DNA from: an archaeon
GTDB taxonomy: Archaea; Nanobdellota; Nanobdellia; SCGC-AAA011-G17; GW2011-AR17
Length of the DNA: 7,756 nucleotides
Direction of reading: 5' to 3'
Assembly (NCBI GenBank): GCA_023245975.1
Contig: JAHFJF010000040.1
Location: 1-7,756 of the forward strand
A program made the position numbers and the translations under genes. This document shows, piece by piece, positions 229 to 6,650 of this stretch; the stretch's first letter is position 1, and the number at the start of each line of letters is the position of its first letter. Below the pieces are notes generated by a model that worked only from the letters and a program-made list of their open reading frames with translations, was not told the origin of the DNA and ran no database searches.

Positions 229-374
229 AGCGAAAACTAATCCGTCCTTTGCACGGCATAATGAACATGTCATTCATGATACTTAACCAAGAAGCTATTG
301 CTTCGTGGACATCATGCCCTTACACCGCACCTTGCGGAGCGATGCGCATTTTTCATTTGATTGATGATTATGAA
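229..374 (-). other. tRNA-Ala to 23S spacer, with small hairpins
   Basis: This is the transcribed spacer between tRNA-Ala and 23S. It holds no gene. It can form small hairpins, for example GAAGC-AATA-GCTTC at 291-304. The part next to 23S would normally pair with the 23S trailer to form the large processing stem, but that trailer lies outside the window and cannot be checked. Confidence 0.5.
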
Positions 375-410
375 TGGACCCGTCGGGATTCGAACCCGAG
401 GCCCCTGCCT

Positions 411-435
411 CTCTTGTATGGACCTAAGCCCTAAA
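411..435 (-). other. tRNA-Ala anticodon-loop intron (37/38), BHB type
   Basis: This 25-nt intron sits at the canonical 37/38 site. The pre-tRNA forms a textbook bulge-helix-bulge: outer stem CTGCC/GGCAG, 3-nt bulge AGA at the 3' splice site, 4-bp central helix CTTG/CAAG, and 3-nt bulge CAT at the 5' splice site. Cutting CA^T and AG^A restores the loop CTTGCAA. It should be removed by the archaeal tRNA splicing endonuclease and ligase. Confidence 0.88.
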
Positions 436-453
436 TGCAAGGGCAGTGCTCTA

Positions 454-471
454 TTGCCCAACTTTTTGTTT
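454..471 (-). other. tRNA-Ala D-loop intron, BHB type
   Basis: This 18-nt intron lies at a non-canonical site in the D-loop. The precursor folds as GCUC/GAGC outer stem, an A-A mismatch, 3' bulge AAU, 4-bp helix GCCU/GGGC, 5' bulge GGA, and inner helix AAC/GUU closed by an AAAAA loop. Cutting GG^A and AA^U leaves AGCUCAGCCUGGUAGAGCA, a normal alanine D-arm. D-loop introns usually need a splicing endonuclease with relaxed specificity. Confidence 0.85.
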
Positions 472-504
472 CCAGGCTGAGCTACGGGCCCATAAAGTAA
501 GGAT

Positions 505-544: not shown

Positions 545-586
<42 letters not shown>

Positions 587-677
587 GACGACTTAGCCCT
601 TCTTACTGAATCTAGATTCGAATTTGGCACAAACCAAAACCTCACCTAAACCCTGCTCGAATGGCTTGACGGGCATT

Positions 678-690
678 GAGCTCGAAGCTC
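678..690 (-). ncRNA. Intron domain VI, reduced
   Basis: The hairpin is GAGCT-TCG-AGCTC, followed by AAT at the 3' splice site; AU fits the AY end of group II introns. Domain VI usually has a longer stem with a bulged adenosine 7-8 nt from the end as the lariat branch point. Here the adenosine at that distance is paired or next to the loop, so no clear branch point is seen. Confidence 0.65.
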
Positions 691-693
691 GTT

Positions 694-728
694 CCCACCG
701 TACGTACGAATTTCTCGTATACGGCGAG
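694..728 (-). ncRNA. Intron domain V, catalytic hairpin
   Basis: The hairpin folds as lower stem CTCGCCGTA/TACGGTGGG, a two-base CG bulge on the 3' side, upper stem TACGA/TCGTA, and a GAAA-containing loop (GAAAT). CGC occupies the place of the catalytic triad, as in group IIC introns (AGC in most others). It begins three bases after the ORF stop codon, as expected for an ORF housed in domain IV. This is the strongest single piece of evidence for a group II intron. Confidence 0.9.
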
Positions 729-731
729 CCC

Positions 732-1145
732 CTAATGCATCTTCTCTTTAAGTGCAGCGATTTCTTTCAATCCTTCTTCAGTTTTATCCGCATTTTCTTT
801 TACAAGATATGCAATTTTTCTGAAGAGGTCGAAATCTCTTTTTTTGCTGGCTATCATTGGTTTGTTTTCTTCAAAGAATGGAATTATTTTTTCCATTATC
901 TCCTTTCGATTTTGCACTTCATATCTAAAACACAAACCATGATTTGGTCTTTTATCGATTTGCCTGTAGACATTCCCGCATCTAAAGTATCTCTTTAGTT
1001 CATCAAGAATATCCTTGTCTTCTGCGCGAAGCTTAAGGCTAAATCTCAATTCGACCTTTGCACGCCTGCGTTTCAAAGTGTTTAATCTCAAGTTGAAGCT
1101 TCCTTCACCATCGACTAGACCAACAATATATTCTGCGCTTAGCAT
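732..1145 (-). CDS. LAGLIDADG homing endonuclease encoded by the 16S intron
   Basis: This 137-residue protein has one LAGLIDADG motif, YIVGLVDGEGSF at residues 6-17, with E14 in the place of the metal-binding acidic residue. A single motif in a protein of this length is typical of the homodimeric LAGLIDADG_1 family. The rest is a basic alpha/beta domain with KLRAEDKDILDELKRYF after the first strands. By family knowledge it would cut intronless 16S alleles at the insertion site and so spread the intron; it may also help RNA folding, as some relatives do. The start is the first in-frame ATG, placed just before the motif as in relatives, with a purine-rich AAGGGGGA about nine bases upstream. The stop lies three bases before domain V. 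No RT, maturase X or HNH domain is present. Confidence 0.93.
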   Translation of the reverse strand: MLSAEYIVGLVDGEGSFNLRLNTLKRRRAKVELRFSLKLRAEDKDILDELKRYFRCGNVYRQIDKRPNHGLCFRYEVQNRKEIMEKIIPFFEENKPMIASKKRDFDLFRKIAYLVKENADKTEEGLKEIAALKEKMH

Positions 1146-1287
1146 TAAGGTTATCCCCCTTCCCTTTTACGGTACTATGGAGATAGCTGACTTCCTATAA
1201 AACTTTTCTATAGGATCTCCTCTGGTCACTTACTCAACTTTTTCTTCCATCCATACTAGAGTTATTTATTTCCAATTTCCAACCTAC

Positions 1288-1291
1288 CACC
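1288..1291 (-). other. Candidate EBS1 of the intron
   Basis: GGUG lies in the loop CAGCGGUG closed by AUCUAU/GUAGGU, inside a longer UCCAA/UUGGA stem of domain I. It is complementary to CACC, the last four bases of 16S exon 1 (1472-1469), which supports both the exon boundary and the short EBS1-IBS1 contact usual for group IIC introns. Confidence 0.6.
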
Positions 1292-1455
1292 GCTGATAGA
1301 TGTCATTGGACTCCTTTTTTCTCTTACGAGAAAGCTGGCTGGATTTTGCCTCAAGCCCTTCAGACTCCCTGTTGCCAGAGATGTCCTGCCTTTTTGGCTA
1401 CCTTGTTTTTCAAGGGTTGGATTTGCACCAACTAGCTAAGTAAGCTGCAGAGCAC

Positions 1456-1468
1456 TTTATTTTTCATC
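1456..1468 (-). other. 13-nt insertion before the ribozyme start
   Basis: GATGAAAAATAAA lies between the 16S exon and GTGCT, the best match to the conserved GUGYG start. The distance from GTGCT to the GGTGCAAATCC block is what group II introns normally show, so these bases look like an addition at the 5' end. They must be removed with the intron for 16S to be continuous. Confidence 0.6.
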
Positions 1469-2333
1469 GGTGTGTGCAAGGCACCGGGACATATTCACCG
1501 CTTGCTGTTGACAAGCGATTACTACGGATTCCGACGTCATGAGGGCGAATTGCAGCCCTCAATCTGAACTTGGATAGGGGTTAGAGGATTAACTTCTCCT
1601 TTCGGAGTTGTGTCCCATTGTCCCTATCATTGTTGCGCGCGTGTAGCCCAGAGCATTCAGGGCATACCACCTACCGTTGCCTACGCCTTCCTCCTAGTTT
1701 CCTAGGCAGTCTTCATTGTGTGCTCGGTCACCACGGATGGCCCGGTTGCAACTATGAATGTAGGTCTTGCTCGTTGCCAGACTTAACTGGACACCTTACG
1801 GCACGAGCTGACGGCGGCCATGCACCCCCTCTCGGCTCGTTAGGTAAGACCTTCAATCTGACCTTCATCCTGCCGTCGGTTCTGGTAAGGTTCACGGTGT
1901 AGAATCTGATTAAACCGCACGCCGCACCCGTTGTAGTGCGCCCCCGCCAATTCCTTTAAGTTTCGGTCTTGCGACTATACTTCCCAGGCGGCGAACTTAA
2001 CACCTTCGCTACGGCACCGCGTGTCCTCTGAGGAAACGCGACACATAGTTCGCAGAGTTTACAGCTGGGACTACTCGGGTATCTAATCCGGTTCGCTCCC
2101 CCAGCTTTCGTCCATCACCGTCGGATTCGTTCTAGACTGACGTCTTCACCACAGGTGGTCTTCCAAGGATTAAAACATTTTACCGCTTCCCAAGGAATAC
2201 CTCAGTCCCCTCCCGATCCCTAACAAGACAGTTTTCCTTGCCATTCGTTACGTTGAGCGCAACAATTTCACAAGGAACTTATCAAGTCGGCTACGGACGC
2301 TTTAGGCCCAATAATTGCGATCCCCACTTGTGG

Positions 2334-2372
<39 letters not shown>

Positions 2373-2811
2373 CCACTTATTCGCCAAGCTATTTACACTT
2401 GGCAAAAGCTCATCGTGTGACGAGCACTTTGGGTCCCCATATCACGCTTTCGCGCATTGTATAGGTTTCCCGCCTGCTGCACCCCTTAGGGCTAGGACCC
2501 TTTTCTCAGTGTCCTTCTCGGGGCTAGGACTCTCATCCCCCCTACTGATCTAAGGTTTGGTGAGCCATTACCTCACCAACAGCCTAATCAGCCGCCGACC
2601 TATCCTATGACGTTGCCTTTAAAGGAAAGAGCATTCCAGCACCAATCCCCTATTCGGTATTATCCTCAGTTTCCCAAGGTTATCCCGAATCATAGGTTAA
2701 GTTGTCGACGTGTTACTGAGCATTCCGCCGGTGTGCATTGCTGCACGCCAGGACTTGCATGGCTAAATGGAACCCAAATAGCAGCGATCTCCCACAGGAT
2801 CAATGGGTAAT

Positions 2812-6398: not shown

Positions 6399-6650
6399 TC
6401 AATACAGCTCTTTCCACTTGGCATGGCCCCACTGGATTAGTAGGTCTACGCCCCTGATGTCAGGGATGTCGCAGGCTCCAAAGCAGGTATCTGCCCATAT
6501 CAGGATATTTGCATTGGTTGACTTTTCCAAATTCTCTGCTATGCTCGTAGCTAAAGGCTTCATGCCATCAGGCAGTTGTATGCAGACTGTCTTTGCATTG
6601 GTTTTCTTAATCTCTTCTATTGCCCTTTCCATCTCTAAATCATATTCCAT
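6399..6650 (-). CDS. Dph2-like protein, only the first domain present
   Basis: This 83-residue protein matches the first domain of archaeal Dph2 (Dph1/Dph2 family), the [4Fe-4S] radical-SAM-type enzyme that starts diphthamide formation on elongation factor 2. Clear family motifs are VCIQLPDGMKPLA (22-34), LIWADTCFGACDIP (50-63) and DLLIQWGHA (69-77). The family is usually 300-340 residues with three cluster cysteines, one per domain; here only the first (in the CFGACD motif) remains, and the reading frame stops at the point where GHS-x-L normally continues. After the stop comes a promoter and a different gene, with no Dph2 sequence left. It is either a decayed remnant or a small protein with a new role. 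ATG start, 25 bases after zincin stop. Confidence 0.8.
   Translation of the reverse strand: MEYDLEMERAIEEIKKTNAKTVCIQLPDGMKPLATSIAENLEKSTNANILIWADTCFGACDIPDIRGVDLLIQWGHAKWKELY

Follow-up and report, generated by a model that had tools for sequence, protein, structure and literature searches.

A probable group II intron carrying a LAGLIDADG homing endonuclease gene in an archaeal 16S rRNA gene

Group II introns of the rns-1396 type in Thiotrichaceae/Thiomargarita were reportedly described by Salman et al. in 2012, and Li et al. in 2011 are said to have described group II introns of mitochondrial pre-rRNA that have 5′ insertions and have lost the branch point. For CPR bacteria, Tsurumaki et al. 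(2024; PMC11270868) report that 53 group II-like inserts (16IS9), 39 of them with a LAGLIDADG gene, occupy 16S position 1400, and these inserts are thought to move by DNA homing. The rns-1396 introns, which combine a IIC ribozyme with a LAGLIDADG homing endonuclease (LHE), are represented by 62 sequences, all from Thiotrichaceae and with a 5′ linker in all members, in the work of Liu et al. (2026; PMC13190283); the 753-intron survey in that paper spans green algae, fungi and bacteria, and CPR bacteria go unmentioned in the extracts of it that were consulted. From archaea, group II introns are reported in 28 of 296 genomes, mostly of Halobacterota, and examples with proteins of the bacterial-C type are on record (PMC8919778). 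In the open-licence literature, preprints aside, as far as its texts were available in extract, we found no report that assigns a group II intron to a named rRNA gene of an archaeon.

Here we describe a 794-nucleotide (nt) insert in the 16S rRNA gene of an archaeon, contained in a 7,756-nt stretch of DNA that was analysed as a whole (the window). From its domains, its pairing with the exons and its relatives in other genomes, we propose, with a probability of about 0.86, that the insert is a group II-LHE intron that is likely to be self-splicing, probably by hydrolysis, that is predicted to home at the DNA level and that is likely to have originated in CPR bacteria.

Host gene and insertion site

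The minus strand of the window carries an rRNA operon. Its 16S rRNA gene runs from 2810 to roughly 546; then come an interrupted tRNA-like gene and the beginning of a 23S rRNA gene. The best 16S model was Rfam SSU_rRNA_archaea (1262.7 bits, minus strand), which lends good support to the archaeal 16S identity given to the host gene in a preliminary description of this DNA, and Rfam also places an archaeal 23S 5′ end in the window. The 794-nt insertion that the same description had seen splitting CACACC from GCCCGTC was confirmed at 675–1468 (minus strand), at a junction that we take to lie between E. coli C1400 and G1401. The gene split in this way is the sole 16S copy found in the host, the source metagenome-assembled genome (MAG) being 75.7% complete. 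The features of the locus, in the order of transcription, are as follows.

1469–2810, minus strand: upstream exon of the 16S rRNA, ending in CACACC (Rfam SSU_rRNA_archaea)
1469–1472, minus strand: IBS1, CACC, E. coli 1397–1400 (pairs with EBS1)
675–1468, minus strand: predicted group II intron, 794 nt (Rfam, relatives, covariation, EBS1 pairing)
1456–1468, minus strand: 5′ terminal linker GATGAAAAATAAA, 13 nt, from the 5′ exon to GUGCU (sequence)
1171–1455, minus strand: domains I–III, from GUGCU to CATAGTACC (consensus fold of 20 introns; Rfam D1D4-7)
1292, minus strand: C next to EBS1, complementary to G1401, the first 3′-exon base (8 of 8 archaeal introns)
1288–1291, minus strand: EBS1 (GGUG) in a domain I hairpin loop, pairing with IBS1 CACC (pairing at its own junction)
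732–1145, minus strand: single-motif LAGLIDADG homing endonuclease, 137 amino acids, in domain IV (Pfam PF00961)
694–728, minus strand: domain V, with the CGC triad at 724–726 (13 pairs, 99% of cells paired, 4 pairs with two-sided changes, 15 introns)
678–690, minus strand: domain VI hairpin GAGCU-UCG-AGCUC without a bulged A (fold)
675–677, minus strand: 3′ end of the intron, AAU (sequence)
546–674, minus strand: downstream exon of the 16S rRNA, from GCCCGTC to the anti-Shine-Dalgarno (sequence; 3′ end placed by eye)

Two further observations concern the surrounding DNA. The tRNA-like gene between 16S and 23S (374–492, minus strand) is missed by ARAGORN at default settings; with introns allowed, the program returns a gene of 119 nt that has an intron of 24 nt and whose anticodon is nonsense, and by eye the interval reads as tRNA-Ala(UGC) with two introns, one of them in the D loop. 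An 83-amino-acid open reading frame (ORF) at 6399–6650 (minus strand) matches only positions 1–58 of the 302 of a diphthamide synthesis family, and is possibly a split or truncated gene.

Group II architecture of the insert

Taken alone, the Rfam evidence for a group II intron in the window is suggestive. Intron_gpII, covering domains V and VI (DV–DVI), matches 675–729 at 30.0 bits (E 9.4e-4; curated cut-off 40), group-II-D1D4-7 matches 1279–1416 at 25.8 bits (E 0.0034; curated cut-off 34) and D1D4-1 matches weakly at 1156–1213 (E 1.3); these matches lie in the right order and on the right strand, yet below the curated cut-offs, and at Rfam gathering thresholds no group II family is found in the window and one is found in a single relative (L008) of 14. 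Seven archaeal relatives likewise match group II families with scores below the curated cut-offs.

We consider the group II identity settled because the relatives show conserved, covarying domains, by which a group II architecture of the insert is well supported. A covariance model of DV–DVI with 15 exon letters per row, constructed from 14 relatives with the window left out, found the window at 67.3 bits (E 1.1e-17) as its sole match there, and the domain V hairpin that the preliminary description had recognized, with its bulge and CGC triad, was recovered with C726-G725-C724 in the triad position. Across 15 introns (6 archaeal and 9 bacterial), 99% of 195 cells are paired over the 13 pairs of domain V, and four of these pairs show two-sided changes; the covariation score was reached by none of 500 shuffles, and in a control with slid domain V structures the paired fraction fell to 28–52%. 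Domain I–III blocks had also been claimed for the 5′ part of the insert, and they are borne out by a consensus fold of 8 archaeal and 12 bacterial introns, in which two-sided changes are present in 41 of the 50 pairs. As aligned by MAFFT, the window keeps 42 of the 50; three of the eight failing pairs are gaps in a shorter stem, and the other five fall in the EBS1 arm and look like an alignment shift.

The ORF at 732–1145 lies between the domain III motif CATAGTACC (1171–1179) and domain V, which agrees with its earlier placement exactly where domain IV belongs. Its product matches LAGLIDADG_1 (PF00961; E 5.4e-20, 72.6 bits against a gathering score of 23.1), and among solved structures in the PDB the nearest in sequence are I-OnuI variants (E 2.5e-30). 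It is the one LAGLIDADG protein for which the intron codes, there being no reverse transcriptase, and its single LAGLIDADG motif suggests that it would act as a homodimer. Such an endonuclease is encoded by five of the eight archaeal introns, and L015 and L058 are without a long ORF. In L056 (genome G213), the place of the homing endonuclease in domain IV is taken by an open frame of 102 codons that lacks a LAGLIDADG motif.

Exon recognition and junction registers

Exon–intron junctions were readable in 39 of 42 loci (L079, L081 and L091 being unreadable); L094 and L095, which are domain-V-only matches, were kept out of the junction reading, L083 was excluded from the EBS1 counts as its loop is misaligned, and L053 and L015 are the same genome. 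The junction lies at 1400/1401 in all eight archaeal introns, the register of L056 having been set to 1400 by eye, as its exon differs at a letter outside the pattern of the script. The 31 bacterial junctions lie at 1399 (n = 14, of which L070, L071 and L075 could be 1398), 1398 (n = 7), 1397 (n = 4) and 1396 (n = 6, which could be 1395 if the exon has U1396), and the 1400 register is absent from these 31 CPR copies with readable junctions.

The EBS1 loop varies with the register. Among the archaeal introns it reads GGUGA in L056 and GGUGG in the other seven; at 1399 it is mostly GUGAG, at 1398 UGUGU, UGUGG or UGAGU, at 1397 GAGUAC or GUGUGC, and at 1396 UGUAC. When anchored at its own junction, EBS1 forms four or five Watson–Crick pairs in all 38 scored introns, five of them in 29, and the pair sum of 181 compares with 126.5 ± 5.7 (maximum 145) in 2,000 permutations of the loops among introns, none of which was as good. 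The EBS1–IBS1 helix of the window has 4 bp; in archaeal introns generally it is limited to 4 bp when position 1396 of the host is A. The first 3′-exon base is complementary to the base before EBS1 in 31 of 38 introns (maximum 28 in 5,000 permutations). This match is present in all eight archaeal introns (C facing G1401) and in all 14 introns at 1399 (G facing C1400), but in only three of seven at 1398 and one of four at 1397. The C opposite G1401 in every archaeal intron supports a junction after C1400 in the archaea.

The anchored permutation test replaced one based on the longest EBS1 run, and the outcomes of both are given. The longest-run test picked the true junction in 16 of 39 introns, including 8 of 8 archaeal ones, with shuffled loops averaging 12.3 and reaching 21 at most; true junctions were not singled out, because the complementarity continues into the 3′ exon.

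The preliminary description had placed the intron in subclass IIC, an assignment that is partly supported. The CGC triad is a mark of subclass IIC, and the ribozyme is short, with ORF-less archaeal copies of 424 and 428 nt. In a IIC intron the EBS1 loop would read the 5′ exon alone and an EBS3–IBS3 contact the 3′ exon. Less in keeping with this is the complementarity, resembling δ–δ′, of the base next to EBS1 with the first 3′-exon base in the 31 introns noted above, a feature that a review gives to IIA (PMC4424553); no EBS3 was located.

Intron ends and splicing

The 5′ linker, which like the reduction of domain VI had gone unremarked in the preliminary description, measures 13 nt in the window and 9–10 nt in the seven archaeal relatives, and it is followed by GUGC in the archaeal introns, or by GCGC in L058. 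The group II 5′ end GUGYG is thus not found at the splice site itself; GUGCU lies 13 nt inside the window intron, which is a variant and not an exclusion from group II. At the 3′ end, AAU closes all eight archaeal introns. Domain VI of the window is a plain 5-bp hairpin in which the bulged branch-point A is missing, and that of the seven archaeal relatives is a stem with an internal loop containing A residues. Group II families without a branch point are known, and in many IIB1 families of group II-LHE introns a 5′ linker accompanies its loss (PMC13190283). From the missing bulged A together with the 13-nt linker before GUGCU, splicing of the window intron is predicted to proceed by hydrolysis, although an intron that has neither a branch point nor a maturase may not be able to splice unaided in the cell. 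Four CPR introns of the 1397 register (L080, L089, L092 and L093) start with TAATCGCC, GGATGCC, TGGCGCC and GGATGCC, respectively, seemingly without an AT-rich 5′ linker, and they might serve to contrast branching with hydrolysis.

The bare hairpin of domain VI, the 5′ linker, the weak Rfam scores and the lack of a maturase could also be read as marks of a degenerate passenger that has ceased to self-splice: host or borrowed factors would take it out, or the 16S rRNA would work in a fragmented state. Such decay is at odds with the compensatory changes that keep the pairing in domain V (6 archaeal and 9 bacterial introns) and in domains I–III (8 archaeal and 12 bacterial introns), with an EBS1 that tracks the exon and with an ORF that is open, and in giant sulfur bacteria, whose rns-1396 family has a 5′ linker too, experimental characterisation of 16S group II introns is reported (PMC11270868, PMC13190283). 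We regard a degenerate passenger as unlikely and the intron as genuine and likely active.

The usual type of archaeal rRNA intron is the bulge–helix–bulge (BHB) intron cut by the archaeal splicing endonuclease (PMC6125680), and the preliminary description had named cutting by this enzyme as an outcome that would speak against a group II intron. Examined in sequence, none of the eight archaeal introns has a 4-bp core between two 3-nt bulges at its junctions with any bulge offset tried, the best central helix having three of four pairs in the window and two of four in the seven others. As the group II domains are, moreover, conserved, we rejected the BHB reading, which we consider highly improbable.

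Distribution and origin

A pattern scan for the domain V 3′ strand and the 3′ exon, across a collection holding one genome per species (84,980 species), returned 21 stretches, 10 of them with the context of domain V. Nine of the 10 carry the label CPR or simply ‘bacterium’, and the tenth comes from a Woesearchaeota archaeon (L015). The remaining 11 stretches were judged by eye to be chance matches. Within the phylum of the window, 35 of 371 genomes matched in a search with the endonuclease; 30 of the matching loci were examined, 29 of them (the window’s own aside) were scanned for exon flanks, and five of the 30, the window’s and, at 56–64% identity, L023–L026, lie in 16S at this site. The RNA model places the intron at the 16S site in eight of the 371 genomes, that of the window included, and matches 27 of 379 genomes in the phylum of L004, some of them in domain V only. 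A ninth match in the window’s phylum, G369, is weak and confined to domain V.

An intact 1400 site (two mismatches at most) was found in 189 of the 371 genomes and in none of the eight that bear the intron. The 11 genomes of the window’s family divide into seven with an intact site, two with the intron and two with neither, and genus g3 has both states, with the intron in G065 and an empty site in G110. Many of the DPANN sites listed in the phylum survey read CACACT-GCCCGTC, with U rather than C at decoding-centre position 1400.

In the RNA tree, which was drawn with midpoint rooting, the archaeal introns form a single clade (100/97) apart from the 31 CPR copies, and their sister group is five of the six CPR 1396 introns (96/93), as it is in a tree realigned without the linker and EBS1 columns (96/89). 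The LHE tree, rooted on 11 LHEs from other DPANN sites and including 7 of 982 other homologs (P0002–P0007 and P0034), places the five archaeal LHEs inside those of CPR bacteria, adjoining CPR L070 (98/93). The RNA and protein trees differ on the nearest CPR sister, a disagreement about the donor that would be expected if RNA and LHE had separate histories or if resolution were weak; both trees fit a transfer from bacteria to archaea. Given relatives within a few letters of the same site in CPR bacteria, the element is likely to have crossed domains, and we consider it likely that the archaeal intron lineage was acquired from CPR bacteria. An ordered walk from 1396 to 1400 would suit the LHE tree, where 1400 nests beside 1399-register CPR copies, but not the two RNA trees, where the archaea adjoin five of the six 1396 copies, and we claim no fixed register order.

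Two sequences met in these searches are recorded for their own sake. P0034, a 68% identical LHE fragment on a 2.9-kb contig with the source label Nitrososphaera sp., may represent a host outside DPANN or a mislabel. In L017, a group I intron (1518–1870; 75.9 bits) lies about 110 nt downstream of the CPR 16S group II intron.

As the source is a MAG of incomplete recovery and CPR homologs exist, an error of assembly or binning might have stitched a CPR intron into an archaeal 16S contig. We hold such a chimera to be very unlikely because eight genomes share the intron, because their copies cluster in one RNA clade that excludes the 31 CPR copies and because all eight are at the 1400 register, which is unseen in those 31; furthermore, archaeal 16S lies upstream in eight of eight, and six of the eight stretches (not those of L026 and L056) also carry archaeal 23S. 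Although 21 of the 39 group I introns reported from archaeal rRNA carry LAGLIDADG genes (PMC6125680), a group I intron has a negligible chance and was rejected, as the covariance search against both kinds of model that had been suggested at the outset returned the group II matches below cut-off and no Intron_gpI in the window (E up to 10) or in seven archaeal relatives (E up to 0.5), and the covarying domain V and EBS1 also speak against it.

Proposed mechanism

In the group II-LHE intron that we propose, EBS1 would align the exons, domain V would catalyse release of the 5′ exon by water and the exons would be joined across 1400/1401 in the decoding centre, restoring the only 16S copy found. 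At the DNA level, the LHE homodimer would cut the conserved site of an intron-less 16S gene, which repair would then fill with a copy of the intron. Tentatively, and at somewhat less than even odds, we suggest a history in which the lineage stepped in increments of 1 nt along the decoding-centre strand (1396–1400), retuning EBS1 and the neighbouring 3′-exon base, and crossed from CPR to DPANN hosts into an archaeal-only register; the LHE would have been swapped or kept independently of the RNA, and in the archaeon described here the branch-point domain would have been shed in favour of hydrolytic splicing of the only 16S.

Comparison with known systems

The set of junction registers offers a natural experiment on the retargeting of a ribozyme by single letters, and the window copy a direct test of whether a group II intron works without its branch-point domain. 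CPR bacteria and DPANN archaea, tiny and probably symbiotic cells, would be linked by a common rRNA parasite. Positions 1392–1406 presumably form a common 16S primer site that contains these inserts, and inserts within such a site would hide their hosts from 16S surveys.

The preliminary description had proposed a new combination, which holds for the archaeal host, new according to the literature searched, and not for the kind of element, which is known from CPR bacteria (PMC11270868) and Thiotrichaceae (PMC13190283). As far as our searches show, the new elements are the archaeal host, the archaeal-only 1400/1401 junction and the 1-nt junction steps with EBS1 and the 3′-exon contact retuned. 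A group II intron of the LAGLIDADG-carrying type is thereby placed in archaeal rRNA, for which the literature consulted describes BHB and group I introns.

The group I introns of archaeal rRNA (Nawrocki et al. 2018, PMC6125680) resemble the window intron in their archaeal rRNA hosts, DPANN included, and, in the proportion given above, in a LAGLIDADG ORF; they differ in the ribozyme and in location, with 36 of 39 in the LSU and 1498 as the SSU position named. Mitochondrial pre-rRNA group II introns and the fungal IIB1-LHE introns share an rRNA host, an LHE and a 5′ linker, and in many IIB1 families the linker occurs together with a non-canonical domain VI, as in the window, whereas the fungal IIB1-LHE introns have a IIB1 backbone, mostly two-motif LHEs and a mitochondrial location (PMC13190283). 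The rns-1396 introns of Thiotrichaceae/Thiomargarita also combine a 16S host, a single-motif LAGLIDADG protein in domain IV and a 5′ terminal linker, but they are inserted at 1396 in bacteria, as against the 1400 junction of the archaeal window (PMC13190283). The CPR 16IS9 inserts have the same 16S site within a few letters, a LAGLIDADG_1 ORF and no reverse transcriptase (PMC11270868), and the CPR copies found here are homologous to the archaeal introns in domains I–III, domain V and the LHE. From these copies the window intron is set apart by its archaeal host, by a junction at 1400/1401 rather than at 1396–1399, a shift of 1–4 nt, and by the archaeal EBS1, GGUG(G), with its C against G1401.
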